Below are positions 5,390 through 44,376 of a DNA stretch of 64,000 nucleotides, in pieces. The notes beneath the pieces were generated by a model. The model was not told the origin of the DNA. It saw only the letters and a list, made by a program, of their open reading frames with translations, and made no database searches. Made by a program: the position numbers and the translations under genes. The stretch is from positions 28,626 through 92,625 of the IMG/VR virus record IMGVR_UViG_3300030098_004740; one strand, given 5' to 3'. Numbering within the stretch: the stretch's first letter is position 1; every line of letters begins with the position of its first letter. Source of the DNA: a virus.

Positions 5390-7180
5390 ATGGCCACAGA
5401 TAAACAACCTGTAAACGACCAAAGGTCTGAAACAGATAAAAATGACTATAGTCACTTGATGCTAACTAGTGCTAGTTATCCAGAGCAAGACATACCTATT
5501 AGAGATGCCGCTAATAATGTTTTGTTTTGGGATAATCATCCTGACTATGCGGGAAAGCCTATAAACGCTTTTAATGCATCTACTACTACAGCCACTGGAC
5601 CAGTTGCATCTTTTATGGATCAGTTTCCAAGCGATAAGGCTTGGCATAATGCTGGAGGTATGTCTATTGATGGCTTGTTTGTTCCTTATGCCACAAACTT
5701 TGCCGTAGTTAGCACAGGTGGGGAAAGAAAAAATCTGAACAAAGCTCCAGACACTTCTTCAATGCCTACTTTTGAAAGGCCATATAGTGTTGAAAAAGGA
5801 GGCGAACCATCAGACCAAGTTGATTTTGTAAACTACAATACAAAACTAGGGGCTGCTGCACCATCTCCCGCCACAATAGACTCCGCTTCTCTTAATCCAT
5901 TTGCTTCCGGCCACTATATACAAATGGTTAACAAGGAAAGTAAACAGGTTAGTCCCAACACAGACGTTTCAGGGTATTCTAAGCATTCTTCTCCTTTAGG
6001 AAAACCCAATGTTAAATCTACTGAAACAGAAAGACCAATAGGTCTTAGAGGTCCGATTGTTATTGCTGGATGGGGTTATGATGCTATTACTTCGCATCCA
6101 GTTCCTAACTTAAGATACGACTCTGATTATAGACATAATGAACCAAAGAGCGCGAATTATGGTAGGCAAAGGTATGCTCCTGAGACCATGAAGGCTAGGA
6201 CTGCTAGCGGTATGCAGCAAGACCATAAGCATTTTACTCCTTTTCATATGAGAAGACCTGACAAATGGAAAGCTGGCCCTGTTGACTTAAGATGGGATCA
6301 CAATAGAAAAGTTTGGGTTGGTGGAAAGCACAATGGAATATTTTTATCAAAAGCTACAAAGTGTATACTTCCAAAATCTGGTATAGATGGTAATAACTCT
6401 TTTAACTTTGGCGTTGGTGGTAATATTAATGCTCCCGGAAGATTATATAGAAACCCATGCCCAACGCATAACTGTAATTATCATTCATACTTTCCAACAA
6501 GTATCTATTATCCCGATATAGAAATATATGACCCAGAAGATCACAACTGGTGTGGTAGATGTAGAACTATAGGGACACAAACAGCATGTGGAGACTTCAA
6601 GGATGGATGTTCTCCTTTTTATGATGCAATTATTTTAAGAGCTGTAGATGAACAAGTAGGGAAAAATAACGAGCTTATTGAATGTACTGACAAGTTTAGA
6701 AAAGTGCAAGGCGGTACTCCTCAAGCAAGAAGAGCTGGAAACCCTTGTCATGGATGGGGTTCTAGTAAATTTGGAACTGGTGAGTTTATTAATGAAAAAA
6801 TAGGAGATGACGAAGTTTGGACAGAATATGCTAAAGCTTTGTTGTATCAAAAAATATTCGTAGAAAACCCTCTAGGTCAAGGGTTAATGGTAGGGGATGC
6901 ATTTTTTAGTTATGATACTGGTAGGAGAATAGTGTATGAATATGAAAGAACAGATACCGCAGCTTGTGGAAAAGGTGTTGGTACAAAAGTAAAAGTAAAG
7001 GAATCTATTCCTGTACATGTAATTTTACAGGGCGAATTTTATGGAATGGAAGTAATTTCACACGCAGGTTGTGATAGAGGTGAAATGGGTTCTTGTTCTA
7101 GAAAATTCTTTGCTCAAGGCTTTGCAACTGGAGAAGATTGTGGGCCAGATGATGACTATCCACAAACAGCAGGATCATAA
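5390..7180 (+). CDS. Large structural-block protein of unknown function
   Basis: A 596-residue protein between two giant virion-type proteins. I recognise no family. The composition is like its neighbours: rich in Gly, Asn, Tyr and Pro, few long hydrophobic stretches, no signal peptide. Residues about 350-420 hold a Cys/His cluster (NPCPTHNCNYH, NWCGRCRTIGTQTACGDF, GCSPFYD) that could bind metal or form disulfides. The C-terminus has more Cys (HAGCDRGEMGSC). The stop codon overlaps the next start in TAATG at 7178-7182, so translation is probably coupled and the two products may be made in fixed ratio. A tail-associated role is inferred from position only. Confidence 0.8.
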   Translation: MATDKQPVNDQRSETDKNDYSHLMLTSASYPEQDIPIRDAANNVLFWDNHPDYAGKPINAFNASTTTATGPVASFMDQFPSDKAWHNAGGMSIDGLFVPYATNFAVVSTGGERKNLNKAPDTSSMPTFERPYSVEKGGEPSDQVDFVNYNTKLGAAAPSPATIDSASLNPFASGHYIQMVNKESKQVSPNTDVSGYSKHSSPLGKPNVKSTETERPIGLRGPIVIAGWGYDAITSHPVPNLRYDSDYRHNEPKSANYGRQRYAPETMKARTASGMQQDHKHFTPFHMRRPDKWKAGPVDLRWDHNRKVWVGGKHNGIFLSKATKCILPKSGIDGNNSFNFGVGGNINAPGRLYRNPCPTHNCNYHSYFPTSIYYPDIEIYDPEDHNWCGRCRTIGTQTACGDFKDGCSPFYDAIILRAVDEQVGKNNELIECTDKFRKVQGGTPQARRAGNPCHGWGSSKFGTGEFINEKIGDDEVWTEYAKALLYQKIFVENPLGQGLMVGDAFFSYDTGRRIVYEYERTDTAACGKGVGTKVKVKESIPVHVILQGEFYGMEVISHAGCDRGEMGSCSRKFFAQGFATGEDCGPDDDYPQTAGS

Positions 7181-13100: not shown

Positions 13101-16100
13101 TCCTAGAGATGGTCATACTAAATTCTATCCATTGCCAGCTGGTAGTTGTGAATTTCCTCATCCATTTGTAGATGCTGATGGCAATGTATTAGAAACAATA
13201 CCAGATGATGCACAAACCGATAAAGCTTCATGCGAAAGAGAATATTGTTCTTTTGATCAAATTGATAATCAACAAGATTGCGAAAACGCCACTGATGATC
13301 AAGGAAATCCAGCAGGTTATAAATGGATGCTAGGAAGTTGGTCTGAAAACACTAAGGAAGAATCTGCTTATATCTGTGAAGATTTTCTAAGAAAAAGACC
13401 AACACAAGCTTATGATGATAGGTATCCAGAGACAGCAAGAAATTGTAGAAAATGTTCTAACCTATACAGTGACCAAAATAAAGCTCCTATTAAAAAAGAA
13501 TTTGCAGGGTGTGGTTGTGATTGTCTTGTAAATCATGTTGACGCGCTTGCTTTTGAAAGGTATCCTACCTGCCGAGAGGCTATAGGTGGTTTACTACCAG
13601 ATTGCACTCCAGAAATCTTAGGTCAACAACATACACTTGGCACAGCAGGCGCGTTGTTAGCTGTTTGTACGGCGGGTACTGGATCTCCGGCGGGAACAGG
13701 AACTGGCACTGAGGTATATTATTATTGGTCATTTGATCCTTGTCAATGCTTCCCTCAAAATGTTCCTCATAAGTGCATCGGTGATCATATACCTTTAGAA
13801 TATGGAAACAGTTGTGAAGATGATGGAGTTGTTTTACCGTCCAATAATGTCGGAGGTTGTTATAATTCAAGTAATGCTCTTATCTTAACCAAAACTGTTG
13901 AGCATGGAGCCAGTTGTAAAGATGGTATTGGTAGCATTGTTGCTGGTGTAACTACTAGAGATGAATGTATTTCTATAGCTGGTCGAGTTTGGAATACAAC
14001 AGCTTTAGATTGCGACACAAATGCTGGTGAGTACTTCAAAGCTGGTAACAAATTGGAATGTGGTGTAGTCGAAGTATCAACAGATGGTTATTCGGCTCCA
14101 TATTCTCTACCAAACTCTGCGCAGCCTCAATATGAAACATGTCCCGGTTTAGGAGCAATTGATGTTTCATTGAAATATGATGGTTCTGTTTGGCGTTCTG
14201 ATTGGACTCAAATGGGAGCAGTTGGGACAAAACAATGCAAGATGGGTCAACATAGATTCGTCTTCTCTCCCAACTGTAAGAGTACCGGACAGAGTCCATC
14301 AACCGCACCGAAAGGTTATGCTTTCCGTTCTTCGTCTGATCTAGTTGCAATAAACGCAGATTGTGGAAATTGCGATGCAGCACAATATTCTTATCAAGGC
14401 GTTAGGGTTTTTGGTCATGACCCACTAAACTATACGTACAGAGGACATGAATTCCCTACAGATGTAAAAGACAGTCATTATATTAGACTTGTCATGGGTT
14501 GTGGAAATAGCGTATCAAGCATAACACCAGAAGACGCAATGGTAAAACAAGGAGGTTTTGGAGGAGGTAGGCACACTTATAGAGACAATGGAATAGAAAT
14601 TTATGCACAAATAGCCAACTGTACTTTCTATGACTTTGACGCGAGCGAAGGTTTAAGGTTTGGAAGAGTTAATGAGGGTACTAGCGGACAACCTCCATGC
14701 CATGGCAGCAATTGTATAAGCAAAGCTAAAACTTTTGGAGATTGGACGGAAACTGGCAAACCGACGATTAGTGAAAGAATATTCAGTTTTGCTGGAAGAT
14801 GCATAGATGGACGAGCTAATTGTGGAAATCAAGGGCCTTGCGCAAAAATTGCAAGTTGTTGTGTATATACAGGAAGAGACGTACCTTTACAGACTGGCTT
14901 GGATGGTCAATCATTTCCGTTATGGAGTGGTGGAGTAGCCTGCACTACAGGAGGTGACATTGAACACAGATGTAGTGCTTGGGGTTACGATCCGTTTCCG
15001 AAAAAACCAGCAGAAGTATTCACTGTTTATTATGTAAAAGAAATACATGATGATGGAAGTGCAACCCTTGTTGTCAACAAGGGTATGGGGTGTTCTTGGC
15101 CCAAAGGTACTGTTGTAGGCATTGGTCACGCTGAATTACTAGACGCTGAAAATGATGACTTTGGTAGCACAACAAGAAACAACATGCCCAGAAATCCTTT
15201 TTTGCCAGCAGGAGCTACTCATCTATTAGGAAGTAGAGTATTTAACTACGATCAAAAAAGTTCTGGCGCTCCTATGGTGCTGTCAGATAGATGGGAAGTT
15301 TATGGAGAGTTTGATAATAAGACATTTGCTACCGAATATCCAATAGATGTAGAAGACCCTGCAATTCCTGATGGTAGAGGCAATCAGTTCACTCTTGGTC
15401 GTCCAGAACGTGGAAATACTGGTTTTATGGAAATAACAGTCGCAAGTATTGAGCCTCTCATAAGTAAAAACCCCAGACAAAATAGGCACTTAAAAATTTA
15501 TGATAGAAGTGGAATATTAGATGCTAATGGAACATTCGATCCTAAAGACGCAGACATGCTTCCAAATCGTGATTATGCACATCCATTTGGATTAAATCCA
15601 TGGCCTGTAGGAGTTCAAAATCATTCTTCAACTGGTAGAACGCAAGACATGTGGCCTAAAGGTGTTCCCATGGGATGGGAAAACACTGAGCATTTGAGAA
15701 AAGATCCTGTCGCTGCTCATACAGCTTTAGGAAGAGTTGGACTAAAGCCAACGGCTGAAAATTTAAACATGCTATCTGTTTATAATGAGGTATCACAAGG
15801 AAATACGACAACTCCGATCCCATTAATCATGCCAGTAACAACAGTCATGATTAATTCGATTGATAACGTTTATGCAACAGATGACGAAGATGGAACTTGT
15901 GTAGGAAAAGTAGCATACACAAAACAACAATGTCAATCTGGAGGAGCAAGCGCAGGAAGATGGATTCCTAGATTCCTTTATACAAAAGCTACAACTGGAC
16001 AACCGCACGACATAAGTGATGGCGAAAAAATAATTGTCAGCGGATCTGTCGCCTATCCAGCTACTTGTAGAGGGACTAGGCTTGGTTATTGCCATGGAGA

Positions 16101-18462
16101 TGTCTCGTTAACCATTAACGAATGCATGAAAGGTGTTTGCAAGGACGTTCAACATCCAAATGGTTTTGGCATAACCGGATCAATAAAAAAATATCATATT
16201 GATCCAGACACAAACAAACCTTGGGATACAGAACATGACTGCTCAATAGCGAGTGAGCAGAAAAGACAAGATTTAACTTCAAACGGCTGGGATCCAGATG
16301 GCACTTTTACTAAAGATCTAGTTTTCACTCCTAATGGACAATGGGTTCAAGTATATGAGGATCACGAAGCTGACGAACAAATATGCGAAGCTTTTGGTGG
16401 CGGATGGGTAGTTGGAAAAACCAATAATAAACAAGACAATAAAGGGCTATACGAGGATCCAACAAATGATTTTCCTGATGATTTAGATAACAAAGAAAAA
16501 GATTTTGTTCAAGGTTGTCCAGTAAATTGTCAAATTAATGGATTTATGATTCAAGATGCTTGTACTTCGCATTATGATTATGGTCAATGTTATGAGTGTC
16601 TCTTGCTAACAATAAAAGATGATCAAGGAAACGAAACTGAAGAATCCAGATGTCCTAGAGCTGAGCATGATGGAATGTACATAGCAAGGACGAATCCTGA
16701 AAGATACTGTCAAAATACTAATTATGATCCTGACTTTTCTAGCACTACAAATGGAAATCAAAGAAAACAAGCAATAGCCAATGCAAAGATAGAATGCATC
16801 AGAGCTGGTTTTGACTGGTATGGAGATGTACCACTTTCGTTAAAAGCAGATTCTAATGGAAATGAGCATTCATTTGAAATAGCTCTTCATGGCGAATTTA
16901 ATATGGATTTTGTTGATGGGGCAAAAATCTATGGAAGCGAAAGAGTGCCTCTTAGAGCAATGACTAAAGGTAGAAATGTTAAGAGTGATTGGCAATTAGA
17001 TGTTGAAGTCCACGAAGGAATTATTGTTGATCCTTTGGGTGACTTTAAAGATGATGCTAACTACACAGTACCAATAACAAAAGAAGAGTGCTTAACAGTA
17101 AGAGAACATGTGTGGATAGACACAACACCTGCTCGTCCACCTTCACCGTTTGGAAACACACAAACAAAAGGCACTGCAAATCAAACTCCTCTAGTGTCTT
17201 CTGCGTTTACTTCTGGATTTGGATATAAAACATATGGACAAGCAGGAACTAGTCCAACAGGAAACGTAGCAAACGGAACTGTAGGAGAATGTGTTTACAT
17301 CAGAAAAATAAGACGGTTCATGGAAAATTGGATTCCCCGTACAAACAATACTGGCGTTTCCTTAATACAAACTAATGAGTTCCTTGAGGAAGATGTTGAC
17401 GGAAATGCTGCCAAGATAGTATCTTCTCTTCAAGACGCCTGCGTAAGATCAGACAATTGTATATTAAATAAGAAGTTTGGTTGGTGTATGGATCTTACTG
17501 AGAATACACTTGGAACTTGTTATGAATATCTTCAAAACGGCGGAACTTGGAGAGAATCAAATCAACCAGCCAATAAATGTACTGATATATTTGTAGGACA
17601 ACAACAAGTTATAGGCTCTAGCACGTTAACCACATCTTTGAGCGAAAGAGAAGCATGTGCAACAAAAGGTATGCAGGCTTATGGTGGAGGGATTGGAACT
17701 ACGGTAAGCTCTACTGCTGTTGTAGATGATTTTGAATGTATGGATCCTCAAGTGCCTGCTTATCAGTCAACTTTTTCTTGTACAGTTAGTGATCCAGTCA
17801 CTCAACAGCCTTATACAGATGAGTTTTCTTGTATCGTTGGTGGAGGTCAATGGATTGAGACACCTCCAGCAAAACCAATAAGAGGTGCTGGAATGACTGA
17901 AAGGGTTTGTAGAGAAGTAGCATTAGGACATCCAGTCTACAAGAATAATCAAGGAGAAGTTATATCGCCTGCTCCAGAATATGGGCCAAGTACAATGAAC
18001 AAAGCCTTCCTTGATTTACAAGCATTGTCTTCAAAAGAGGCCATTGCTATGGGTCATGAGACTGGTATAGGAGAGACTCAAAGAGTTTACAAAGGTGTAA
18101 TATACGCTCCTAATATTGAGAAAAATCAATTTATGGGTGGTAAGGAAATAGAAACCTATACTAAATATGGAGTTCAAGAAAATGAAAGAGCTGTATGGAG
18201 CAGACATGGCGGATCTTTCGATATAATTGTAGGGTATCCACCACCGGAAAATAATTGTAGAGACGCTAATTCAACCGGACCTGTAAATCTAGATTGGCAT
18301 TTAGGGTTTGATCAAATATGTTGCAATGTTAGAGGTCCTTTGAAATTTTATCAATGTGCAGACAGATGTTATCATAATTACGAAGGTCCTTTAATTACAG
18401 ATTTAGAGCAGGATTTTAAAACAACTGGAGTGTCACATCTGATTGTAAATGTTCATGATTGA
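7180..18462 (+). CDS. Giant Cys-rich repeat-bearing virion protein (3760 aa)
   Basis: One uninterrupted frame of 11.3 kb. It carries many copies of a Cys-pair motif, C-x(5-25)-C followed by a Gly-rich turn and Trp (for example ADCEAAGGTWSP, EDECDEAGGSWSP, DEASCNFASGTW). Residues about 1265-1300 contain ITSRSHGLRNGDLIM and GNFAAN, a motif known from phage tail proteins (HGL..GD.I..V.GN..AN). A second copy of that type may lie near residue 2950 (TTGQPHDISDGEKIIVSGS). There is no signal peptide and no membrane segment. The start ATG overlaps the previous stop. The size suits a tail fibre, tail needle or host-contact protein, and the many Cys suggest disulfide or metal-stabilised modules; both points are inference. 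No catalytic motif was recognised. Confidence 0.85.
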   Translation: MAIGDFWDTSYNPIYEYGSNPLKNDRTGKYQWGPDYSDIVPQTSVGSLKRRQKGRFCSEGCGCVNTYCDSMLLPEGQYGCHLPPELSITVVRNPNGRYEAKGEIEGGGGETIHLKYSKGSWRGRRCCTSNAYGQLEYACDPCKVTTLPNGKPSECHPANNKFKDFGKNSHISQKSDNFTIRDDFDYDEALKGGSNWPRLGENAWLKLSVYNVTAPTTGTDMLRDTTFDGFASLCFDASGLPVKGIGNEGDCLKNSGYHWSEKTPVWINNDINDEDDVAGNGGHIQLIGTEEVPTKFSIDVKADEVVTNIKSREKTIKVTKDGYLDNYSINNGADPNDRVSTTKLNYYDPTSEDRGCLVDGSMPLKKRPYCRNAITGKRIQQQCEEVTGVNAGFGSGFSITKEKEDCEATSSSINGYCSISDPVTQQPYPDEASCNFASGTWVWEDNKWLYDDQTTCEDAGSCLAPKTDKFQSQEDRIVGAYCLDIVSGTKDPVPQNKAECEAQGHGIWKLGDSSSCTASYKEGSPVCNDIDGKDSGHADEDSCLAAGNTWMKNEWFSNQWVDWEYEKLSCCGETLLDHNYPSRTPQISGSTLSARKNPSCTTPYHEVILSPYQAGQNINTESYHSCIAAVNQWQRDDNTDTEFFMNTISYWTLVIRPCNFHGGCQDENVKRPDPQDLIDNKLDNYYDTTCGEEIVLYLSTDQLVNCSNLNLTIENENQIRSGWKEAQPMWHKSIGDTKGNPANLQFLMPGADSSMISGSSSYEFSYPGDAMYKNQYKHWCNNPDVNVDGIGDGGVCSQYHYWNSGFPKVQLANPKGIDAFYGFNLQPQPFKATEEKQNRAKLLYTAAVDHNTWQACAGHILGDANGGGHWFWNYGPDYFMYFDFLAYDEIHSFNPVAIKNDSPKCTAVATKAKEYVDSHVGFLRRGDCGYGNGPLWVGWIPDYDSWTNNKICPDCGSKGKNNCESEGGCLNADGSFETDQTDCSEKGQCNSPVGTKTTHTTEDECDEAGGSWSPAKFVPCCEWFEECSERIVTNHQDAGEFGMGAEPKYRDAVDKAECEKHPDQGGAGGVWSGGCTPGVGQRQQNQLCGEVQNPPEDFVDIVLGEQFGTCVLHKDGQNANITDMSKSDCGEESMKHECRIILTGIVVNTSQDACELNPLTEWVPVYDQDPAPKFEPDMIGHFDSKYPRREGPLTKLREAGPLTGSLADVSQMKGGFIERQPGVSVDFPSGTAKENPLNYWHRTGLYPRGETASYVSDGCVGVSHSGRIEHASNTTPIKITSRSHGLRNGDLIMTQDVLGNFAANVFLSQRDVKEIQWEDKLAGSCTGDNCDDQAYPASECLFEGKCLDSSGNDTGEKDKSKCNSAAGNTWEEVCPSEYLACYGFRVPGNMEPQYAPFAVVQNATADTFDLYTCDNLPLKGTLSTGAIKNLPESVDTHGQVIECEGVGNASVCFWGYFAQFTGYFGGEINPINPPPLTLGTEVTDDPTVNAGKPTIGKWAARCIAYDSGKVINQADDARSEYKFNPFAVLTGAPINENYTCGGTIADGGHWCGASDCDSRFGKWMTEQEMADNVLTKSKIEGSKEVCESYGICNIIKNAQEKAPKSVMTKSDCKKLSKVYHTLDLDAGYHDDSQIYVERCQDADGNIDNSPEIQDALDIKKACEERGSCSEAFFGNKKDCEGNGFIWNGGTYIKKANNCVGDEMEGQDNDLCWTPNVFGTEIDLSSTSGGGLGNDRPLPNYPVCPYTGTWEIFHQDLGIAAGYFTENQFDSIYRFGWGGLTRRWEERANDYYIQIEQKGICPVCCDHFLPETLTATISDTGSSLQDIVGGCPIDPCEAGDFIFDDDATARGTRSGWKKTSGKFSGSFDGYCCSDFYHPCSIPEDELTKCIADPTQFGHCYRVSNASGQEPGLLAGAYTKDECAKRGSGAGGCSKSGICTVNPQGNQTPADCEAAGGTWSPVTDQTGCTSAGGTWTPRDGHTKFYPLPAGSCEFPHPFVDADGNVLETIPDDAQTDKASCEREYCSFDQIDNQQDCENATDDQGNPAGYKWMLGSWSENTKEESAYICEDFLRKRPTQAYDDRYPETARNCRKCSNLYSDQNKAPIKKEFAGCGCDCLVNHVDALAFERYPTCREAIGGLLPDCTPEILGQQHTLGTAGALLAVCTAGTGSPAGTGTGTEVYYYWSFDPCQCFPQNVPHKCIGDHIPLEYGNSCEDDGVVLPSNNVGGCYNSSNALILTKTVEHGASCKDGIGSIVAGVTTRDECISIAGRVWNTTALDCDTNAGEYFKAGNKLECGVVEVSTDGYSAPYSLPNSAQPQYETCPGLGAIDVSLKYDGSVWRSDWTQMGAVGTKQCKMGQHRFVFSPNCKSTGQSPSTAPKGYAFRSSSDLVAINADCGNCDAAQYSYQGVRVFGHDPLNYTYRGHEFPTDVKDSHYIRLVMGCGNSVSSITPEDAMVKQGGFGGGRHTYRDNGIEIYAQIANCTFYDFDASEGLRFGRVNEGTSGQPPCHGSNCISKAKTFGDWTETGKPTISERIFSFAGRCIDGRANCGNQGPCAKIASCCVYTGRDVPLQTGLDGQSFPLWSGGVACTTGGDIEHRCSAWGYDPFPKKPAEVFTVYYVKEIHDDGSATLVVNKGMGCSWPKGTVVGIGHAELLDAENDDFGSTTRNNMPRNPFLPAGATHLLGSRVFNYDQKSSGAPMVLSDRWEVYGEFDNKTFATEYPIDVEDPAIPDGRGNQFTLGRPERGNTGFMEITVASIEPLISKNPRQNRHLKIYDRSGILDANGTFDPKDADMLPNRDYAHPFGLNPWPVGVQNHSSTGRTQDMWPKGVPMGWENTEHLRKDPVAAHTALGRVGLKPTAENLNMLSVYNEVSQGNTTTPIPLIMPVTTVMINSIDNVYATDDEDGTCVGKVAYTKQQCQSGGASAGRWIPRFLYTKATTGQPHDISDGEKIIVSGSVAYPATCRGTRLGYCHGDVSLTINECMKGVCKDVQHPNGFGITGSIKKYHIDPDTNKPWDTEHDCSIASEQKRQDLTSNGWDPDGTFTKDLVFTPNGQWVQVYEDHEADEQICEAFGGGWVVGKTNNKQDNKGLYEDPTNDFPDDLDNKEKDFVQGCPVNCQINGFMIQDACTSHYDYGQCYECLLLTIKDDQGNETEESRCPRAEHDGMYIARTNPERYCQNTNYDPDFSSTTNGNQRKQAIANAKIECIRAGFDWYGDVPLSLKADSNGNEHSFEIALHGEFNMDFVDGAKIYGSERVPLRAMTKGRNVKSDWQLDVEVHEGIIVDPLGDFKDDANYTVPITKEECLTVREHVWIDTTPARPPSPFGNTQTKGTANQTPLVSSAFTSGFGYKTYGQAGTSPTGNVANGTVGECVYIRKIRRFMENWIPRTNNTGVSLIQTNEFLEEDVDGNAAKIVSSLQDACVRSDNCILNKKFGWCMDLTENTLGTCYEYLQNGGTWRESNQPANKCTDIFVGQQQVIGSSTLTTSLSEREACATKGMQAYGGGIGTTVSSTAVVDDFECMDPQVPAYQSTFSCTVSDPVTQQPYTDEFSCIVGGGQWIETPPAKPIRGAGMTERVCREVALGHPVYKNNQGEVISPAPEYGPSTMNKAFLDLQALSSKEAIAMGHETGIGETQRVYKGVIYAPNIEKNQFMGGKEIETYTKYGVQENERAVWSRHGGSFDIIVGYPPPENNCRDANSTGPVNLDWHLGFDQICCNVRGPLKFYQCADRCYHNYEGPLITDLEQDFKTTGVSHLIVNVHD
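8428..8481 (+). repeat. Copy 1 of an 18-residue near-identical module
   Basis: Encodes CSISDPVTQQPYPDEASC inside the giant Cys-rich protein. It is the closest relative in the window of the segment at 17779-17832. The two differ at four of 18 residues and at several synonymous sites, so the protein sequence appears to be conserved rather than the DNA recently copied. Confidence 0.8.
17779..17832 (+). repeat. Copy 2 of an 18-residue near-identical module
   Basis: Encodes CTVSDPVTQQPYTDEFSC, about 9.3 kb downstream of copy 1 and near the C-terminus of the same protein. Codons for the shared VTQQPY differ (gta aca caa caa cct tat against gtc act caa cag cct tat), which points to old duplication. 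Confidence 0.8.
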
Positions 18463-34163: not shown

Positions 34164-34717
34164 AGATTTGTTTCTCTCAAAGACTTTATGATCACATCAA
34201 TCTGTTTGATGACTTCTTGCTTTGTTATAGACATCAAATCAGCAATTTCAGCATTTGTATAATTTTGAGATTTTAGCTTAATTAAGAATACCTGCTTTTC
34301 AGTTAAAGAATCTGGCAGGCAATCTGATATTTTTTCTGAGATATTATAAGACTCTTCTACAACTTTTGCATATTCAAACGTTATAGAATCTTTTTTTTCA
34401 TCTTTTTCTTTTAGGTTGTTTATAGCATTTCTTATACACACCGTGGCAAAAGTGCTAAACTTAGACCTCTCTGGATCATGCTCTCTTATTGCTTTAAGAA
34501 GTCCTATCAATCCAACTTGTATATAGTCATCAAAATTTGAGTCGTTCAAAAAATAAAGAGCTTGAGATACAACTAATCCATAATGATCATGAACCAGTTC
34601 TTCTTCAAGCTCTTTGTTTGTAATCGTCTTGTTTTTATATAAATTGCTCTTTTGGTTTTGAGTTAAAGAGCTTGAATTCTTTAACTCTGAACTTTGTTGC
34701 GAACCTTTTGTTTCCAT
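34160..34717 (-). CDS. Sigma-70-like factor, possible late sigma
   Basis: 185 residues. Residues about 58-95 (DDYIQVGLIGLLKAIREHD and FSTFATVCIRNAINN) are sigma region 2, which contacts core polymerase and the -10 box. Residues about 135-180 (LTEKQVFLIKLKSQNYTNAEIADLM) are a region-4-type helix-turn-helix. Region 1 and most of region 3 are missing. The length equals that of T4 gp55 (185), the late sigma, but the two are not shown to be homologous. The start is uncertain: the ATG at 34717 lies 83 bases inside the SSB gene and has only a weak binding site. Confidence 0.82.
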   Translation of the reverse strand: METKGSQQSSELKNSSSLTQNQKSNLYKNKTITNKELEEELVHDHYGLVVSQALYFLNDSNFDDYIQVGLIGLLKAIREHDPERSKFSTFATVCIRNAINNLKEKDEKKDSITFEYAKVVEESYNISEKISDCLPDSLTEKQVFLIKLKSQNYTNAEIADLMSITKQEVIKQIDVIIKSLRETNL

Positions 34718-34985
34718 TTTTGTCAGTCCAAGAATTGTTTCTAGCAGAGGCCACTAGATCAATTATATCGCCTTTAGAGCAATGTTTGCCAATTGCATCA
34801 CCCCCAGAGTCCCAAGCCTCAAAATCAAAGAAGTTAGTTGTCTTCTTTTTTTCGCCGCTTTTTTCTCTTCTATATTCAGTTATAGCTAAAGTAAAGGTCC
34901 AAAGTCTGGTATTGTCAAATTCAACCATTTTTGGATCTTCTGTAAGTCTTCCAATAAATCGGCAGTAGTTTGAAATAGTATTCAT
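34635..34985 (-). CDS. ssb: Single-stranded DNA-binding protein
   Basis: 116 residues, one OB fold. NYCRFIGRLTEDPKM is the family start, WTFTLAITEYRR the second strand, and FFDFEAWDSGGDAIGKHCSKGDIIDLVASAR the family core. It coats single strands at the fork. I chose the ATG at 34985 because AGGGA lies six bases upstream; an earlier in-frame start at 35045 would add 20 non-OB residues inside the polymerase gene. The usual acidic C-terminal tip of bacterial SSB is replaced by NSKPKEQFI. Confidence 0.88.
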   Translation of the reverse strand: MNTISNYCRFIGRLTEDPKMVEFDNTRLWTFTLAITEYRREKSGEKKKTTNFFDFEAWDSGGDAIGKHCSKGDIIDLVASARNNSWTDKNGNKRFATKFRVKEFKLFNSKPKEQFI

Positions 34986-35031
34986 ATTTTTCCCTATCAG
35001 GTGTGGTGTCTTAACTATTTTAAGCGTTGGG

Positions 35032-36618
35032 TTAAGATAATTCAATAACGTCTTCTACTATGAATCCGTCGTCTATTTGATTTCTTATATTTCTGGAATC
35101 TTGACCTTTTAATATCACGTTGTTGCCCTCATAAAGAACATTTTTAAACTTTTGCCAATTATCTGCAAATACGGTTATAGTATCTATAGTTCCAGTGTGA
35201 TCTTCTGCACAAATGAAAGCCATCTCTACGCCTTTCATCTTTCCTCTTTTTGTCACATATTTTTTGACATCAGATATTGTCACAGCCATCTTGACATTCT
35301 TCCTCTTGCCAGAGGAAAATTCTTTGATTGTAGTGTTGGCTAGACTAGTGTTATAAGACTCAATTCTAGAATGACTCAAGGATACTCCAAGGTAGTTCTC
35401 TTCTGTCCTGACTACCCATTCAGGCTCATCTCGTAATGAATAAGAAGGATTTTCACAATGGATGACTAGATCAGATATGATCTGAGATCTTTTTGCGTTG
35501 TGAGTTGCACCTCCAGATTTTTTAGTTGGAGACATTGCTTTCAACAAACTAACTAAAGAATCAAAATCTGATATATTATCGACAGCCCATTCCTGCTCTT
35601 TCTTGGTTATGTTGCTCCAAGTGTCAAGCTCGTCTAACATTCGTTGCCTAGACTCAGGAAACTTATGAAAGAACCCTATGGATATTAAGGCTATTATCAT
35701 TCTAGAATTGCATTTCGACGAAGCCAATATCAGAAACTCATACCATGTCCAGTCAGCAAAAGGTTTGTTGTATGATTCTTCTGCTTCTGCTATTACAGAT
35801 TTCATCTTTTCGACTTGCTTAAGACCTACAGTTTTTACATCTAAAAATCCAAAGCATATTTTTTCGTCGATTATGTCGGTGTAAGTGTTCATGGCCTTGA
35901 ATGACGGAGGATTGATGTATATATCTACATTCTTAGCGTCATTTACAAGCTGTTTAACTTCCTGCTGAGGGTCAGGCTTTCCAGACGAATGCAAAAGGTA
36001 GTTACAGTAAAACTCAAGAGGATGATGAGCCTTAGCATAAGCACTCCAGTAAGCGCAAATAGCGTAAGAAACAGCGTGAGACTTATTGAAAGCATACCTG
36101 CTGGATTTTTCAATCCAACTAAAAATCTCTTCAGCAACTTCATCGCTTACAACCCCTTTTTTAGACGCGCCTTTGAGGAATGATTCTTTGACCTTAGCCA
36201 TAAGGTCTGCCTTCTTCTTACCAATCGCTTTACGCAGGTTATCAGCTTCTTGAAGATCAAAGCCAGCAAGCTGCTGAGCTATCTGCATAGACTGTTCTTG
36301 GTAAACAAGGACTCCTTGAGTTCCTTTTAGAATTGGCTCAAGAGATGGATGAAGATAAGTTATCTCTTCAGCTCCATTCTTTCTGTCAACAAAGTGTTGG
36401 GTCATTGTTTTGCCATCTACTATGGCTTTGAGGGTTCCCGGTCTGATAATTGATATCAGAGCAGAAAGCTCTTCTATATTTCTTGGTTGAACTCTTTTAG
36501 CCCAAGACTTGCCTAAGTTACTTTCTAGCTGGAATACACCTTTAGTTCTTCCAGAACATATCAAGTCCCAAGTCTGAGTATCATCAAAATTAACTTCAAG
36601 TGGATTGAAATCAGACAT
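35032..36618 (-). CDS. dnaE: DNA polymerase III alpha, C-terminal half (split DnaE)
   Basis: 528 residues. WDLICSGRTKGVFQLESNLGKSWAKR matches the fingers region that follows the third catalytic Asp in DnaE. RPGTLKAIVDGK, GVLVYQEQSMQIAQ and VSYAICAYWSAYAKAHHPLEFYC are fingers signatures. A helix-hairpin-helix segment (FFHKFPESRQRMLDEL) and an OB fold (KMAVTISDVKKYVTKRGKMKG) follow. The tau-binding C-terminal domain of bacterial DnaE is absent. The gene cannot be active alone: all three catalytic Asp are in the N-terminal half at 37526-39439. Two intact genes separate the halves. No intein sequence is visible at this start. Confidence 0.93.
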   Translation of the reverse strand: MSDFNPLEVNFDDTQTWDLICSGRTKGVFQLESNLGKSWAKRVQPRNIEELSALISIIRPGTLKAIVDGKTMTQHFVDRKNGAEEITYLHPSLEPILKGTQGVLVYQEQSMQIAQQLAGFDLQEADNLRKAIGKKKADLMAKVKESFLKGASKKGVVSDEVAEEIFSWIEKSSRYAFNKSHAVSYAICAYWSAYAKAHHPLEFYCNYLLHSSGKPDPQQEVKQLVNDAKNVDIYINPPSFKAMNTYTDIIDEKICFGFLDVKTVGLKQVEKMKSVIAEAEESYNKPFADWTWYEFLILASSKCNSRMIIALISIGFFHKFPESRQRMLDELDTWSNITKKEQEWAVDNISDFDSLVSLLKAMSPTKKSGGATHNAKRSQIISDLVIHCENPSYSLRDEPEWVVRTEENYLGVSLSHSRIESYNTSLANTTIKEFSSGKRKNVKMAVTISDVKKYVTKRGKMKGVEMAFICAEDHTGTIDTITVFADNWQKFKNVLYEGNNVILKGQDSRNIRNQIDDGFIVEDVIELS

Positions 36619-36634
36619 AACTCACCTTAATTTA

Positions 36635-37318
36635 TCAAATATATGTTTCACCATCCGCAAACGATTTTTCAAATGTTATTTTTGGAGCTACTCTTCTATG
36701 AAGCTTCATGAATCGAATCATTAAATTGGCTGTATCTTTAACATCTTGCAATGCATCGTGAGCATTTTCTTTACTCATACCAAATAGGTCTCGCATTGAA
36801 TCCATGCTTAATGACTTTACGTCGGCATTGTTTTCCATCCACATCCACATAGTATCCATTACATCAACTCTGTGAATTTTATTAAATAAAGTTTGCTTTC
36901 CGGTCTTCTTGTCAATTGGCCCGTATAGTTCACACATTCTCTGTACAATCGGCATATCAAAGCCAACAATATTGTAGCCAGCTGCGATTGGTGCGTAAAA
37001 CGGCTTGTTCTTAAAATTGTACCTATTTACAAAGTTTGTAAATTTCTTCCAAACTGTTCGTTCCGATGGAGCTTTTGCCAATTCTTCTCTGGTTTTTCCG
37101 TTGACTGCTAGAGCCTCGTCTTCGATGGGGTCTAGTCCCATACTAATAGCTTCGTCGTCGTCCAATACAGGACGTATGAGGCTTTCAAAGTAGCCATCCG
37201 GTTGCAATGTTAAGTTTCTGCCATGAATCGCAACTGCGGCAATTTGGACAGGCTGGGTTTTATCAGGATTTCTAGAACCTGTTTCAAAATCAAATACAAT
37301 TATGTCTCTATAATTCAT
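36635..37318 (-). CDS. DnaQ-like 3'-5' exonuclease (proofreading candidate)
   Basis: 227 residues, DEDDh family. IIVFDFETGSRN gives the first Asp and Glu, AAGYNIVGFDMPIV the second Asp, and AHDALQDVKDTANLM the His and last Asp. It removes mismatched 3' ends. Its gene lies between the two DnaE halves, and a small gene separates it from the N-terminal half, so the product very likely serves as the phage's epsilon subunit. I see no recognised clamp-binding motif. Confidence 0.92.
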   Translation of the reverse strand: MNYRDIIVFDFETGSRNPDKTQPVQIAAVAIHGRNLTLQPDGYFESLIRPVLDDDEAISMGLDPIEDEALAVNGKTREELAKAPSERTVWKKFTNFVNRYNFKNKPFYAPIAAGYNIVGFDMPIVQRMCELYGPIDKKTGKQTLFNKIHRVDVMDTMWMWMENNADVKSLSMDSMRDLFGMSKENAHDALQDVKDTANLMIRFMKLHRRVAPKITFEKSFADGETYI

Positions 37319-37533
37319 CTCATTTTCCTTCTCAACTCAAAAAATTTATTCAATGCTTCTTCTATATCTTCATACAGACCACTAAACGAACGACAGTGAA
37401 CCTGATATTTTATCTTTTTATTCATTGGTTCATAAAAGTCATTTATCATGCATATGCTAAGACCTTTGTATTCACTATAGCGTCCACTCGTTATTCTTTC
37501 TCTAACGTTTTGTTTGTAGCTTTTTTTATACAT
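37315..37533 (-). CDS. Small basic protein between the DnaE halves
   Basis: 72 residues. The N-terminus is basic (MYKKSYKQNVRERIT), and the rest is a strand-rich region ending in a helix (EDIEEALNKFFELRRKMR). No family recognised. It overlaps the DnaE-N stop by eight bases and the exonuclease start by four. It might bridge the two polymerase halves or bind DNA; nothing in the sequence proves this. Confidence 0.75.
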   Translation of the reverse strand: MYKKSYKQNVRERITSGRYSEYKGLSICMINDFYEPMNKKIKYQVHCRSFSGLYEDIEEALNKFFELRRKMR

Positions 37534-39439
37534 CTTTTTTCTCTAATTGATCTCTTATACCCATTAGTTTATCCATTAAGGAAATACCCAGTATATCAAA
37601 TTTGACATGACCCATTGATTCAAGGTCGTTCATTTCCATTCCGGCTATTTTGTCGGAGCTTCTTTTGTCTCTAACCATTGGGCAAACATCATCTAGTTTA
37701 TGAGAAGATATTACGACTCCTGCTGCGTGTTTGCCTTGTGACTTAAATGTTCCTTCAATGCGCATAGCTTGCTTAAAATATGTAGCTAGATTTCCTTCTA
37801 GCTCTCCATCATCATTTAGCCTGCAATAGTCTCTCAAGGCTTCTGGCTGGTTCATCAATGTCCATTGAATCACAGATGGCTCATCCATTTCAGCCAGTTG
37901 GTCAGAGACTTCGTGTTCGTGAGGCAGGCTCTTCGTTATCTCTTTCATTTCTTCGTATGGACAAGCTTCATTTATTCTCAAAACTTCTGTTAATGAACTT
38001 CTTCCTTGAAGTCTTCCAAATGTCACCATTTGACCAACTCTATCATTGCCATACTTTGATCTAATATAATCTATTGTCTCGTCTCTTTTGGTAGCTGGGA
38101 CATCAATGTCGATATCTGGTAAAGATACGTGTCCTCCAGTATTTCTACCGGCATTATAAAATCTCTCAAAGATCAAGCCATATTCCATTGGGTCAACTTG
38201 AGTTATCCCAACTAAGTATGATACTAGACATCCAGCAGCAGAACCTCTACCCGGACCGGGAATGTAATTCTTCTCTACTACACTGTTTACAATATCTCTA
38301 ACGATTAAAAAGTAACCAGCTAAATTAGCTTCACTAATTACATCAAGTTCCTTTTTTATTTGTTCTGTATAAAGGTCTTTTGATTGTTGGTTGTTTATTT
38401 TCCCACTAGGTTCTAACCTGTTCTTCCAGCCTTCTCTACACAGTTGTCTTAAATATTGGTCTTCTGAAATTTCTTGTGGGCATTTGAATTTAGGCAGCAT
38501 TGGCTGGCCTAAGATATTATAGTCTTCACACATAGAAGATATTTGCATCGCCATGTCAATTTCGGCGGCAGTGTTTACCTGTTGTATTTCTTCTAGCGTT
38601 GGTATATGAAAAGAGTTTGAATTTAAAAAACCACTAAATGCTGAATCGCCAGTTTCTTTTAATCTGCTCTTTGCTTTGCGAAGAGTGGTTTTCATAGAGG
38701 AGCATAACAGTAATAATTGATCTTCTGCATCCTCTCTTCTTGGGTAGTGAGAATCAGCAGTTGCAACAGACTGGAATTTGTATTTCTTGGCAATATACCT
38801 TAAGCCTTTAGCAACAACGGTGGCTGCTGGAGATTTGTCTTGGTCTATTGCTTGTATTTCTATAAAGAAATTGTCTTTGCCAAATATTTCTTTGTACTTA
38901 TTCGCTATGAACAAAACGTTGTCAACCCAATCGGGATGAGTAAACCTTATAGCCTCTTCTTCTGTTTTAGCATTGTAAGCAGACTTTGGATCAATAAATA
39001 TTGCATTTGCCAAGTCGCTGCCAAGATGACCACTAAATGCTATGAGGTTTCCATCTGCAAATTGACCGAGAGTATTTAAGTCAAGTCTTGGCTTGTAATA
39101 ATAATTTTCTTCGTCATTGCTTTTAGAAACAGCTTGGATTAGGTTATGCCAACCCTTTTTGTTTTTAGCAAGCACGCAAAGATGACTAAGCTTCTTATTT
39201 TCGTCGTTCTTCACAGTGCAATCTTGCTGGCTTAGGTAGAACTCGCAACCAAGAATAGGTTTAATATTCTTTTTCTTCATTGCCTGAGTGAAAGATACAG
39301 CCCCTGATATAGTGCCGTGATCCGTTAAGGCGCAAGAAGTATAGCCAACCTCAGAACATCGTTCAGCAACCTGTGAAGGCTTACTGAGGCCATCTAGGAG
39401 GCTATAGTGCGTATGAAGGTGTAGTGGTGTCCAACTCAT
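37526..39439 (-). CDS. dnaE: DNA polymerase III alpha, N-terminal half (split DnaE)
   Basis: 637 residues. Residues 7-16 (HLHTHYSLLD) open the PHP domain. Residues about 440 (LPDIDIDVPATKRDE) hold the first two catalytic Asp, and near residue 613 HVKFDILGISLMDKLMGI holds the third. PGPGRGSAAGCLVSYLVGI is the palm nucleotide loop. The protein stops just after the third Asp motif; in bacteria the same chain continues into the fingers. No intein block (Cys start, HN end) is visible at its end. The C-terminal half is encoded at 35032-36618. Confidence 0.93.
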   Translation of the reverse strand: MSWTPLHLHTHYSLLDGLSKPSQVAERCSEVGYTSCALTDHGTISGAVSFTQAMKKKNIKPILGCEFYLSQQDCTVKNDENKKLSHLCVLAKNKKGWHNLIQAVSKSNDEENYYYKPRLDLNTLGQFADGNLIAFSGHLGSDLANAIFIDPKSAYNAKTEEEAIRFTHPDWVDNVLFIANKYKEIFGKDNFFIEIQAIDQDKSPAATVVAKGLRYIAKKYKFQSVATADSHYPRREDAEDQLLLLCSSMKTTLRKAKSRLKETGDSAFSGFLNSNSFHIPTLEEIQQVNTAAEIDMAMQISSMCEDYNILGQPMLPKFKCPQEISEDQYLRQLCREGWKNRLEPSGKINNQQSKDLYTEQIKKELDVISEANLAGYFLIVRDIVNSVVEKNYIPGPGRGSAAGCLVSYLVGITQVDPMEYGLIFERFYNAGRNTGGHVSLPDIDIDVPATKRDETIDYIRSKYGNDRVGQMVTFGRLQGRSSLTEVLRINEACPYEEMKEITKSLPHEHEVSDQLAEMDEPSVIQWTLMNQPEALRDYCRLNDDGELEGNLATYFKQAMRIEGTFKSQGKHAAGVVISSHKLDDVCPMVRDKRSSDKIAGMEMNDLESMGHVKFDILGISLMDKLMGIRDQLEKKDV

Positions 39440-40458
39440 TTTTTATCGCTATCGTCTGCCAATCTTCCACCGCCATCTCCGTAGGTGGCGATTTTGTCAA
39501 TTTTCCCAAAACTCTCAACAACCTTGACTATACCCCTATGTTTTATCTGGTCACGAATATATTGGCAAACACTTTTTTCAGCGCCTTCCTTATAAGGCTG
39601 GCTAAATTTGCAAAGTTTTTGACATTTCCAGTGACTGTTTTCATTGGAGAGTAATCTTGGTTGCTGAATATCTCTTATCTGCTCAAACTTTTGCCTAAGT
39701 ATATCTTCGGCTTTTTGGTAGTCATCCTCGTCAAAAACCATCGAGAATAATCCGCCGCTATTGATGTAATAAATACTAACCGAGAACTCTCGTTCTGGGT
39801 ACATATTTTTCAGAGCGTAGTAGTATAGCAAAAGCTGAGTGTCTTTTTGCAACTTTTCGTGAGTTTTTTCTTCTCCCGTAGCCCAATTTATTCTTTTGCC
39901 GGTTTTGTAATCCAGAATTTCGTAATATTCGTCGTCATGTTTTAAGATGAGGTCAACGGTTCCTTTGATTGATAGATAACCCTCTATGGTCTGATCTTCA
40001 AACTCGTACTTGTACTTTGCCCAAGGTTTCTTAATCTCAATGTCAAAGAAAAGCTCTGTTGCAAAAACTTCTTGGTTTCTTGGATCTAAAGCTCCGCCTT
40101 GATAAGCTACAGCTTTTTCTGCCCAACGAAGACATTGCCTTTTTTCTTTCTCCCCAAGGTTAACTTCTGGAAAAGCATTTGTGTAATACTCAAAAGCTAT
40201 ATCATTAAGAAGCTCAAGATCGTCGCATTCTTCTAGAGTTAGATTCCTTCCAGTCTCTTCATCTTCTACAATATCTAAACCTTTGTTCATAGCGACTTTT
40301 TTGTCGCCAAGCGTTTGCATAACTTTATGGGTAATAGTACCCATCAAAGCTTTTGCATTTGTCTTGTCTTTGAAAGAGAGATTGTATTGCAAAAAGTATT
40401 TTTGCTGACAAAATTCTAAAGTTCCAAGACTACTGCTCCTGTGGTAACAGACTATCAT
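39436..40458 (-). CDS. RecB-like PD-(D/E)XK nuclease with Fe-S Cys pattern
   Basis: 340 residues. KGTVDLILKHDDEYYEILDYKTGK is the nuclease core (Asp, then D-Y-K). Cys near residue 18 and three Cys in CQKLCKF and SVCQYIRDQ near residues 295-315 match the four Cys that bind a 4Fe-4S cluster in Cas4 and AddB nucleases. No helicase domain is present. It may process DNA ends for recombination or packaging. It overlaps the next upstream gene by 29 bases and the DnaE-N start by four. Confidence 0.85.
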   Translation of the reverse strand: MIVCYHRSSSLGTLEFCQQKYFLQYNLSFKDKTNAKALMGTITHKVMQTLGDKKVAMNKGLDIVEDEETGRNLTLEECDDLELLNDIAFEYYTNAFPEVNLGEKEKRQCLRWAEKAVAYQGGALDPRNQEVFATELFFDIEIKKPWAKYKYEFEDQTIEGYLSIKGTVDLILKHDDEYYEILDYKTGKRINWATGEEKTHEKLQKDTQLLLYYYALKNMYPEREFSVSIYYINSGGLFSMVFDEDDYQKAEDILRQKFEQIRDIQQPRLLSNENSHWKCQKLCKFSQPYKEGAEKSVCQYIRDQIKHRGIVKVVESFGKIDKIATYGDGGGRLADDSDKK

Positions 40459-41026: not shown

Positions 41027-41763
41027 CCCCATCCTTTCATTACTTCCATGAGAGCCATGTTAGTTTGATCAATATTCATATCAGCGTTATGAATAACATA
41101 ATCAAACTCGTCGTATCCATCCAAAGCTGTTTCGCTATCGTGTTCATCTTCGTGAGGCTTTCTAGTAAGTCTAATAACTTTGCCGCCAGCCTTCTGAATA
41201 GACTCTACCTCGTTTGGAAACCTAACATCGGGAACAATCGCTAATTGTGTTCCGCTAGATAGGATTCTATTTATGCAAGCGCTAGTCCAAATATCAGGCT
41301 TGATGCCTCTACAAACGTCTGTACCGAAGTGTTGCAAAAATTCTCTTGCTGTCATGAAGCCACTAGCATTTATTATATTCGGCATGTTCTCCCACTTTAT
41401 ATTAATGGGGGTATTCTTATCTTCGTCTGTTCCGTAGCATTGCTCTTCTGTTAATCCAAACAGTTGTATTGCGATTGACTTCAAAGGATCTGCAAAGCTA
41501 AACGATCTAACAAAAGGCCATATGTTTCTAGAGGCGTACTCTAAAAACTCTTCGTCTTGACGATTTACATCTAGCATACCAAGACCTTCGATCTCTTGAC
41601 CATTTTCATCAATTTCAGTTGCATTTACGAATAAGTTTCCTTTTTCATCCATTAGAAACTTTTCAAACACATCATTGAATCTAAGTTGGTATCCATGCAA
41701 GAAAGTTGCACAGGTACTTTTCCCACTTTGTTTAGCTCCAGAAAATCCAATTATATTAGTCAT
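41005..41763 (-). CDS. Deoxynucleoside monophosphate kinase
   Basis: 252 residues. GFSGAKQSGKSTCATFLHGY is the P-loop. SFADPLKSIAIQLFGLTEEQCYGTDEDKNTP and TAREFLQHFGTD are features of the phage dNMP kinase family (T4 gp1 type), which converts dNMPs to dNDPs. VPDVRFPNEVESIQKAGGKVIRLTRK follows. It supplies precursors with NrdAB and dUTPase encoded downstream in the window. It overlaps the primase gene by eight bases. Confidence 0.85.
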   Translation of the reverse strand: MTNIIGFSGAKQSGKSTCATFLHGYQLRFNDVFEKFLMDEKGNLFVNATEIDENGQEIEGLGMLDVNRQDEEFLEYASRNIWPFVRSFSFADPLKSIAIQLFGLTEEQCYGTDEDKNTPINIKWENMPNIINASGFMTAREFLQHFGTDVCRGIKPDIWTSACINRILSSGTQLAIVPDVRFPNEVESIQKAGGKVIRLTRKPHEDEHDSETALDGYDEFDYVIHNADMNIDQTNMALMEVMKGWGWLTTKS

Positions 41764-42892
41764 TAGTATAGCCTTTAAGTTGTGGTTTCAAATGCTCGTT
41801 TATTTCTTCAATAGACATCTCGCCAACATCGTTAGCAGGTATATCTATATCTATAATATTAAACAAGTTGCTGCATTTTTTCCTAATTTTTTCTTTGGCA
41901 TTTTGTCCAGCCCCATCGCTATCAGTCAAAACAACCAAATTTAAAATGTTCATATTTTTTAGTAGCTCAATTTGTACGTCAGATAAACTAGCACCAAACA
42001 TTCCAACTACATTTTTTATTCCAGACTCCCAAAGTCTCCAAACATCTCCTTGACCTTCAACTAATATGGCAGTACCACATGATTTTATAAAGTCTTTGGA
42101 TTTGTTTAGAGCATAAAGCCATATGTTTTTTGAAAAACCTTTACTGTTTTTCCATTTCATATTGCTGTTTTCTATCATTGACCTACCAACACATCCAACA
42201 AGCACCTCGTGTTCTTCATCGTAAACCGGAACGACAACCCTATTACTCATTGGTTTACCAGCATCTAAACAAACGCCAACATCAAATTCATTTAAAACTT
42301 CTTCAGTAAAACCACGCCTCAAATAATAGTTAGGAGGCATGTGAAGCCTACCTCTAACTTTGTCTCTAGTATTATTTTTACTAGTGACTTTGACTTCTTC
42401 TCTTTTGTTTAATCCAAACTCTAGAGCAGAAGGACCATCTTTGAAAGTTACATTTTTAGCTTCTTCAAGAACTCTACTTCCATTAATTCCAAAAAAGTTA
42501 GTACAGAATTCAATTACTTCATGAAACTTGACAATAGAATCTTGATCAATTTCTCCAGATTCTCTAGCATCTCTCGTAAGTAAGGCTCTGACAAGACCAA
42601 TAGGGGTATTGATAAATTCAGACATACAGGTTTCTCCATAACTTTCAGACCAACATTTCCATCTTCCATAGTATGGATGGTCAGGTTCTAAGTTAATGGA
42701 AAACCCCATAGGGTTGTTACCTCTATGAATTGGACATGGGCATGAGCCAAGACCCACCTCCATTCTAGTCCCAAAGTGTTCAAGCACTCGGTATATATTG
42801 TTGATAATTAAATCATCATACACCTTGAGTTGTTTAGATCGTTCTTGTTTATCTTTGGACAAACTGAAGCTCATCAAAGTTTCTTTCATCAA
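41756..42892 (-). CDS. dnaG: DnaG-type primase
   Basis: 378 residues. CPCPIHRG and WKCWSESYGETCMSEF form the N-terminal zinc-binding part. Residues about 250-340 are the TOPRIM domain: AILVEGQGDVWRLWESG with the catalytic Glu, and VLTDSDGAGQ with the Asp pair. A C-terminal helicase-binding domain is short. It lays RNA primers for the phage helicase, whose gene overlaps its start by four bases (ATGA). Confidence 0.9.
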   Translation of the reverse strand: MMKETLMSFSLSKDKQERSKQLKVYDDLIINNIYRVLEHFGTRMEVGLGSCPCPIHRGNNPMGFSINLEPDHPYYGRWKCWSESYGETCMSEFINTPIGLVRALLTRDARESGEIDQDSIVKFHEVIEFCTNFFGINGSRVLEEAKNVTFKDGPSALEFGLNKREEVKVTSKNNTRDKVRGRLHMPPNYYLRRGFTEEVLNEFDVGVCLDAGKPMSNRVVVPVYDEEHEVLVGCVGRSMIENSNMKWKNSKGFSKNIWLYALNKSKDFIKSCGTAILVEGQGDVWRLWESGIKNVVGMFGASLSDVQIELLKNMNILNLVVLTDSDGAGQNAKEKIRKKCSNLFNIIDIDIPANDVGEMSIEEINEHLKPQLKGYTND

Positions 42893-44376
42893 AATGGTTT
42901 TTCAGGATCAATATCTTCTTCTATCTTGAACTCTTCTTGTTTGTCATCGAGTTCGTTATCGAAGCCTTCTTTTTCTTTTTTATTTGCAAGTATGTATTCT
43001 GATTTGGTGAAGCCTTCGTCAATTCTTCCAAATTCACCATTAAGGTGCATGTTAATGTAATCAAAGTCGTCAGAGAGTCCACCGCCGTGTCTAGCAATCA
43101 AAGGCACTAGTTTACGATTTCCGCTTTCGCCACCGTCTTCGGCTATTTCCTCCTCAGATTTTTTCTTAAAGATCGTTAGACTGCTACAAAACCATGAAAG
43201 TCTATCTGATCCACTAATAACATCTTCAGATTCACGAGTAATTCCATCTCTATTAAGTTGAACGAAAGACAAGCAAGGAACTTTTTCTTTAATTGTAAAG
43301 TTTACGAGCTGCTGCATTTGATAACCCAAAGCTTGAAACTCTTTCATGTCGTTCATTTGAGACGCACTGGTCAACTTCAAGTAGTCATAAATAATTAAAC
43401 ATGGGTTGCTAATTCCATTCTCATCGTACCCAACTTCTTTCTTAATCCATCGTCTCATTATGGATAATGTCTCATCAAAGCTAGTTCCTGCAATAGTGAC
43501 ATACTTGTAAGGAATTTCTTTTAGTTTTTCTACACCTTGTTTTACACGCTCCTGCAAACCACTTGATTTTCCAAATTGACCTGTAGAAATATCATTTATA
43601 GTAACATCGGTCATGCTTGCTAATAGACGGTGAATGTGATCTTCTCTAGACATTTCAGTGTCAAGCATTAGAACTGGTATTCCAAGAGTGCCAGCCACAT
43701 GTAAAGCTACACTATCAGCAAACAAGCTTTTACCAGCCTTTGCTCTAGCAGCTATAAGGTCTACATTACCTCTTCTAAGTCCACCGCCGATGGACTTGTC
43801 GAATCTAGAAAACCCAGTGCTAATACCCATCATCTCTTGTGGGTTATCTATTAATGATTGAATATATTCGTCAATATCTTGACCAATGTCTTCTGGTTCA
43901 TTGTCAACCCTACCTTCAAGTCTAGAACTAAACTCAAAGAAAGGGGTTTCACCTATACTGATGATCTCACTTATGCTTTCGTCACCAGTAACATCTTTAA
44001 TCTTTATCTTGATTTGGGATGCAGTCTTGTCTACTTCTCTGGCTATCTCAAACTTTACAAGAATAGCTGCCTGATGTTTTACGTTGGCTTTTTCAATGTT
44101 TATTGCAGAGAGTTTTTTGTAATAGTCTTTTGGTACTCTTTTCATAAACACAGAATCTAGATCTATTTTCTTCGCTGCCGCATAAAGAGTGGGCAAGTCT
44201 ACTGTGTCAGAGTCTTCAAATAATTTTTTCAGACAACTCCATACAATTTGATTTTCTTCTAAAGTGAAGGACTGTTCGGTTATTGCTCCATCAATATCTA
44301 CAAAAGAATCTTTACCGTGCTGTATCAGTCCTGCTAGTACTGCTTTTTCTGCTGCTTTGTTGTTTAGTTCCGACAT
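42889..44376 (-). CDS. dnaB: DnaB-type replicative helicase
   Basis: 495 residues. The N-terminal helical domain starts EKAVLAGLIQHGKD. Residues about 190-245 hold STGFSRFDKSIGGGLRRGN, the Walker A loop ARAKAGKS and VLMLDTEMSREDHIHRLLA. SFVQLNRDG and DVISGSDRLSWFCS are later RecA-fold motifs. The acidic C-terminus (KIEEDIDPEKPF) overlaps the primase start. It unwinds the fork and stimulates the phage primase. Confidence 0.93.
   Translation of the reverse strand: MSELNNKAAEKAVLAGLIQHGKDSFVDIDGAITEQSFTLEENQIVWSCLKKLFEDSDTVDLPTLYAAAKKIDLDSVFMKRVPKDYYKKLSAINIEKANVKHQAAILVKFEIAREVDKTASQIKIKIKDVTGDESISEIISIGETPFFEFSSRLEGRVDNEPEDIGQDIDEYIQSLIDNPQEMMGISTGFSRFDKSIGGGLRRGNVDLIAARAKAGKSLFADSVALHVAGTLGIPVLMLDTEMSREDHIHRLLASMTDVTINDISTGQFGKSSGLQERVKQGVEKLKEIPYKYVTIAGTSFDETLSIMRRWIKKEVGYDENGISNPCLIIYDYLKLTSASQMNDMKEFQALGYQMQQLVNFTIKEKVPCLSFVQLNRDGITRESEDVISGSDRLSWFCSSLTIFKKKSEEEIAEDGGESGNRKLVPLIARHGGGLSDDFDYINMHLNGEFGRIDEGFTKSEYILANKKEKEGFDNELDDKQEEFKIEEDIDPEKPF

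Follow-up and report, generated by a model that had tools for sequence, protein, structure and literature searches.

In this study, we analysed a DnaE-type DNA polymerase (the alpha subunit of DNA polymerase III) that is encoded by two genes in a 64,000-base stretch of viral DNA, hereafter the window, corresponding to bases 28626-92625 of the 92,625-base IMG/VR record IMGVR_UViG_3300030098_004740, which is linear and may be a fragment. Four open reading frames follow one another here on the minus strand. The first in order of transcription (37526..39439) encodes the N half of DnaE, 637 aa with the PHP and NTase/palm-thumb domains (PF02811, E 2e-38; PF07733, E 2e-69). A clade-specific 72-aa gene without a Pfam or PHROGs match comes next (37315..37533), overlapping both of its neighbours, then the gene of a DEDDh 3'-5' exonuclease of 227 aa (36635..37318; PF00929 (RNase_T), E 3e-15; phrog_192, "DNA polymerase exonuclease subunit"), and finally that of the C half (35032..36618; PF17657, E 2e-49), 528 aa comprising the fingers, the helix-hairpin-helix (HhH) region and an OB fold. 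In the C half the match to HHH_6 is weak, and the C-terminal OB-like beta fold is seen in the structural model. An earlier note on this DNA, written from the letters alone, had described these genes and domains, and its account is borne out by the open reading frames and Pfam matches and, for the OB fold, by the model. The features by which a DnaE is recognised, PHP, palm with three Asp, fingers, HhH and OB, are thus all present, but distributed over two polypeptides instead of one.

The position of the cut is well defined. The N half ends 22 residues past the third catalytic Asp; in alignment with DnaE structures from the PDB it reaches residue 626 of Taq DnaE, followed by a short tail, and the match of the C half, preceded by nine residues of its own, begins at 649. 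In E. coli DnaE the N half reaches 563 and the C half begins at 589. Alignment with 21 intact bacterial DnaEs likewise places the break in the short loop that leads from the last palm helix to the fingers, and no domain is lost there; the break directly after the third Asp motif, as the earlier note had it, is genuine. The site at which cyanobacterial DnaE is divided by its split intein, Y|CFNKSH, lies about 175 residues further downstream, within the C half, in line with the claim that the viral cut comes well before it. Conservation of the functional residues is high. Each catalytic Asp of the N half (Asp442, Asp444, Asp615) is retained by 136 of the 137 members of the family; the finger motifs hardly vary, and the catalytic residues of palm, fingers and exonuclease remain near invariant down to ~35-40% identity. 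Other parts are more plastic: the PHP metal ligands are lost in ~40% of members, nothing follows the OB-like fold in the C half, which lacks a C-terminal tau-binding domain, and the family alignment contains no conserved glutamine-led clamp motif at the position expected from E. coli DnaE. Modelled alone with AlphaFold2, the C half folds confidently (predicted local distance difference test (pLDDT) score of 84), with lower confidence around FNKSH and in parts of the fingers, and in Foldseek the model matches the DnaEs of Taq, E. coli and M. tuberculosis.

The arrangement is not peculiar to the window. Viral contigs were scanned with each half and with two alignments, and genome contigs in one further scan, the best 80 matches of each scan being considered. 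The gene order sought, N half, exonuclease, C half, was found in 213/213 related viral loci with both halves. Some of these contigs were fetched repeatedly, so the groups at 99, 95 and 70% C-half identity (163, 139 and 28, respectively) are a better count than 213. Could an assembly error or a sequencing frameshift have broken a single frame? The halves are separated by two whole genes, and independent contigs from many metagenomes show the same layout; such an artefact, which the earlier note had also named as a refutation, is excluded, its probability being vanishingly small. Among bacterial DnaEs retrieved with the same patterns, 69 of 70 are intact. In a tree of 64 sequences a branch with support 100 separates the 34 split ones from the rest, trees built from the N part or the C part only recover the same single split clade, also with support 100, and the pairwise distances of N halves and C halves are correlated (0.86). 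Judged by these comparisons of sequence, both halves share a single ancestry and the fission is ancient and clade-wide. The cultured phage collection holds only distant relatives, with best matches to the clade at ~34% identity; in the cultured phages examined the polymerase gene is intact, save in the Microbacterium cluster EF phages and in the Bacteroides phage BS-TP1. At the new N-terminus of the C half, 104 of the 213 loci (including L033:7938-8060) carry a CGC motif, followed in 93 of them by a further Cys. This motif does not occur in the intact DnaEs aligned, is missing from the window's own subclade, and could be a metal-binding staple.

Overall, we suggest that a single cut divided an ancestral dnaE, at the loop joining the last palm helix to the fingers, and that the PHP-palm and fingers-HhH-OB chains would be translated separately and re-form the active site non-covalently, giving a two-subunit C-family polymerase that replicates the virus, while the DEDDh exonuclease encoded between the halves may proofread in trans. 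That the system is such a non-covalent, two-subunit polymerase born of an ancient fission and served by a separate proofreading exonuclease seems to us probable, given the split in all 213 loci, the single clade, the seamless cut, the conserved residues, the confident fold of the isolated C half, the activity of other split phage enzymes (gp43, NrdA) as separate chains, and the status of this enzyme as sole DnaE. On this last point, each of 24 long records (77-238 kb) encodes exactly one DnaE palm; no second dnaE, the finding that the earlier note had named as fatal to its proposal, occurs in them, nor, as far as these possibly incomplete records go, does a match to PolA, PolB or a beta clamp. 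The 92,625-base record itself, within its own possibly fragmentary extent, contains no second DnaE palm or finger domain. The polymerase would use the clamp of its host or none. As for hosts, contigs L142, L143, L138, L139 and L140, all of this virus family, sit in genome bins labelled Lokiarchaeota, SAR202, Chitinophagia and Alphaproteobacteria, which may be hints of the host or binning errors.

Several observations weigh against this interpretation. No intact clade member appears among the matches listed for the 213 loci, so that neither the direction nor the cause of the fission is polarisable; the only intact viral relatives among those matches belong to the distant L060 family, and with the best 80 matches per scan, intact relatives just outside the clade may be missed. 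Nor do records that may be incomplete prove the absence of a second polymerase or clamp. The loss of the PHP metal site in ~40% of members and the missing tau-binding domain would also suit a different history, in which the two genes, as decaying remnants or with some other role, leave the copying of the virus to the host replicase. Decay is hard to reconcile with palm, finger and exonuclease residues held near constant at such low overall identity, or with the placing of both genes inside a full replication cluster, alongside those for helicase, primase and single-strand DNA-binding protein (SSB), and we regard this history as very improbable. Within the L060 family, one intact DnaE (L231:4986-9452) has 1489 aa, ~330 aa above its relatives, and may carry an intein.

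A second alternative is that the halves are rejoined, whether through a split intein that escapes recognition, through trans-splicing of an intron or through translational bypass. There are models for this: in cyanobacteria a split intein unites the two parts of DnaE, and split-intein DnaEs, divided at other sites, occur in locus L292 of the present set and in BS-TP1. Yet in none of the aligned members do Pfam Hint/intein profiles and reading of the termini reveal intein blocks at the new ends, which have only short tails, and Rfam shows no intron at the cut; the earlier statement that no intein blocks are visible there stands. The spacing between the halves, from a few hundred bases to >6 kb and filled with unrelated genes, also argues against splicing or bypass. 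A split intein or intron at the cut is accordingly rejected as far as Pfam, Rfam and the termini reach, and little credence is left for rejoining in any form. That inteins are recognisable in this material is shown by two relatives with inteins elsewhere in the polymerase gene. L057 (7953-9935) carries a cis mini-intein of ~130 residues in the fingers, at FNA|C...N|SH, three residues from the cyanobacterial DnaE intein site. In L292 (2059-5122) the N half is broken by a split intein, with GPGRG|CFIPET... and ...GIGVHN|SAAG at the junctions and a nuclease-like gene between. In BS-TP1 (PQ571274.1; L236 and L239) an apparent split-intein DnaE has a Dda-like helicase gene between its pieces; the finger piece is not annotated in that record.

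In L140 (1861-4935), L313 and L316 (2027-5101) the N half is broken immediately ahead of its MPDIDID motif by a LAGLIDADG endonuclease gene, and Rfam detects no intron in the L140 interval; these three loci, like L292, encode the polymerase in three pieces. Between polymerase pieces, endonuclease-like genes occur in 25 of the 213 loci; the window has none there. Such homing elements in the polymerase genes of relatives make a homing-endonuclease origin of the cut plausible, not proven, and we give an even chance to the view that a homing endonuclease gene inserted there and has since disappeared. Other genes lie between the two halves. A uracil-DNA glycosylase gene stands between N half and exonuclease in 13 loci (L025, L033-L037, L048, L056, L264-L266, L271, L275); methyltransferases and an RCC1-repeat gene are also found between the halves; and in L023 (1326-7254) and L024 (1359-7260) ~6 kb of metabolic genes (glyoxalase-like, aldehyde dehydrogenase-like, aminotransferase-like and others) separate the N half and small gene from the exonuclease. 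A Clostridiales metagenome-assembled genome has a dnaE interrupted by ~2.8 kb (L192:3371-9965).

The earlier note had proposed the exonuclease, and perhaps the 72-residue protein, as partners of the two halves. The first proposal gains weight: the exonuclease gene always lies between the halves, and the active-site residues Asp10, Glu12, Asp121, His187 and Asp192 are present in 137/137 loci. While PHP ligands are lost in a large share of members, the exonuclease residues are not, which makes the exonuclease, not PHP, the universal candidate proofreader. By gene position, it may bind the polymerase as a trans proofreading subunit. The second proposal does not hold in general. For the 72-aa protein an alpha-beta fold is predicted (model pLDDT 85), with no significant match among PDB folds. 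A homolog was found in the space between N half and exonuclease at 77 of the 136 loci checked but not at the other 59; as a universal subunit it is therefore rejected, and it is at most a clade-specific accessory. A larger part for these proteins can be imagined, with the exonuclease, joined by the 72-aa protein where present, as an obligate scaffold that holds the halves together beyond any proofreading. Retention of the exonuclease gene between the halves even where kilobases of genes have been inserted speaks for it, as does the fact that, within its clade, the 72-aa gene keeps a place next to either the exonuclease or the N half; but co-transcription alone can explain a conserved gene order, and with the small gene so often missing we think a scaffold unlikely, if less so than rejoining or decay. 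A fuller version of our own proposal, in which a stable, naturally evolved heterodimeric C-family replicase, divided within its catalytic core and fixed throughout a broad lineage of uncultured viruses, forms a three-part core with the exonuclease and has no clamp of its own, and in which the cut has become a hot spot where cargo genes and homing elements settle, is put forward tentatively, as slightly short of an even bet.

How unusual is this architecture? The earlier note had called it so, and rightly, yet it has precedents: split phage polymerases are already known, with other DnaEs and PolBs cut at other places. Relative to intact bacterial DnaE (Thermus, E. coli, M. tuberculosis), the domain order PHP, palm-thumb, fingers, HhH, OB and the catalytic residues are shared, whereas the viral enzyme is divided into two genes around an exonuclease gene, lacks the tau-binding domain and shows no conserved clamp motif. 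The dnaE of cyanobacteria, with its Ssp/Npu split intein, is likewise spread over two genes, but its cut lies in the fingers and is healed by the intein, unlike the earlier and intein-free viral one. In group 2.2 jumbo phages a minimal Pol III alpha occurs as two proteins thought to reconstitute the enzyme (PMC7824862); there the genes are distant and accompanied by a family B polymerase, whereas the present clade has the full domain set in one gene cluster and no PolB in the 24 records. Microbacterium cluster EF phages (Krampus, AnnaSerena) encode DnaE as two adjacent genes with no intein reported (PMC7302621); their cut follows the PHP part (345 + 767 aa) with nothing between, in contrast to the palm-fingers cut around an exonuclease. 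Essential phage enzymes in two pieces are also known from homing-endonuclease genes-in-pieces, namely split gp43 (gp43A/B) of Aeromonas phage 25 and split NrdA of Aeh1, both active as separate chains, without covalent joining (PMC2988022). Those are a PolB-family enzyme or another enzyme altogether, with recent cuts in few phages, whereas here the cut is ancient and clade-wide and encloses an exonuclease. A further arrangement, fractured genes with split inteins and free-standing nucleases, was reportedly described by Dassa et al. in 2009; L292 shows it inside the N half, whereas the clade-wide cut is without an intein. Our literature searches for a DnaE split at the palm-fingers site, with many subscription papers outside their reach, returned other systems or intein technology only. 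A cut at this site, an exonuclease kept between the halves and a split clade of such breadth all seem to be undescribed in the literature searched.

Replicative polymerases are usually single chains, and here the active site would span two proteins. Hundreds of natural pairs offer a way to ask how a replicase tolerates fission; they bear on whether subunit assembly can regulate polymerization and proofreading and, with three pieces in some relatives, on the way in which homing elements break up a single essential gene into several. The pairs also provide a natural split polymerase and a marker of a widespread, unclassified virus clade, whose halves may at present carry annotations as unrelated or truncated polymerases.

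The two halves belong to a minus-strand replication cluster that runs, in order of transcription, from a DnaB-like replicative helicase (42889..44376; PF03796, phrog_19) and a Toprim primase (41756..42892; PF13662, phrog_47) through a nucleotide-kinase-like gene and a 200-aa gene to a PD-(D/E)XK exonuclease of Cas4/Dna2-like type (39436..40458; PF12705), which adjoins the N half upstream; after the DnaE N half, 72-aa gene, DEDDh exonuclease and C half follow the SSB (34635..35045; PF00436), adjoining and overlapping the C half downstream, and a sigma-like gene, all of the genes with coordinates given here lying on the minus strand. Elsewhere, the 92,625-base record contains a tail tape-measure domain, which identifies it as that of a tailed phage, and an open reading frame of 3760 aa without a PHROG match (window positions 7180-18462) lies beside the tail genes.
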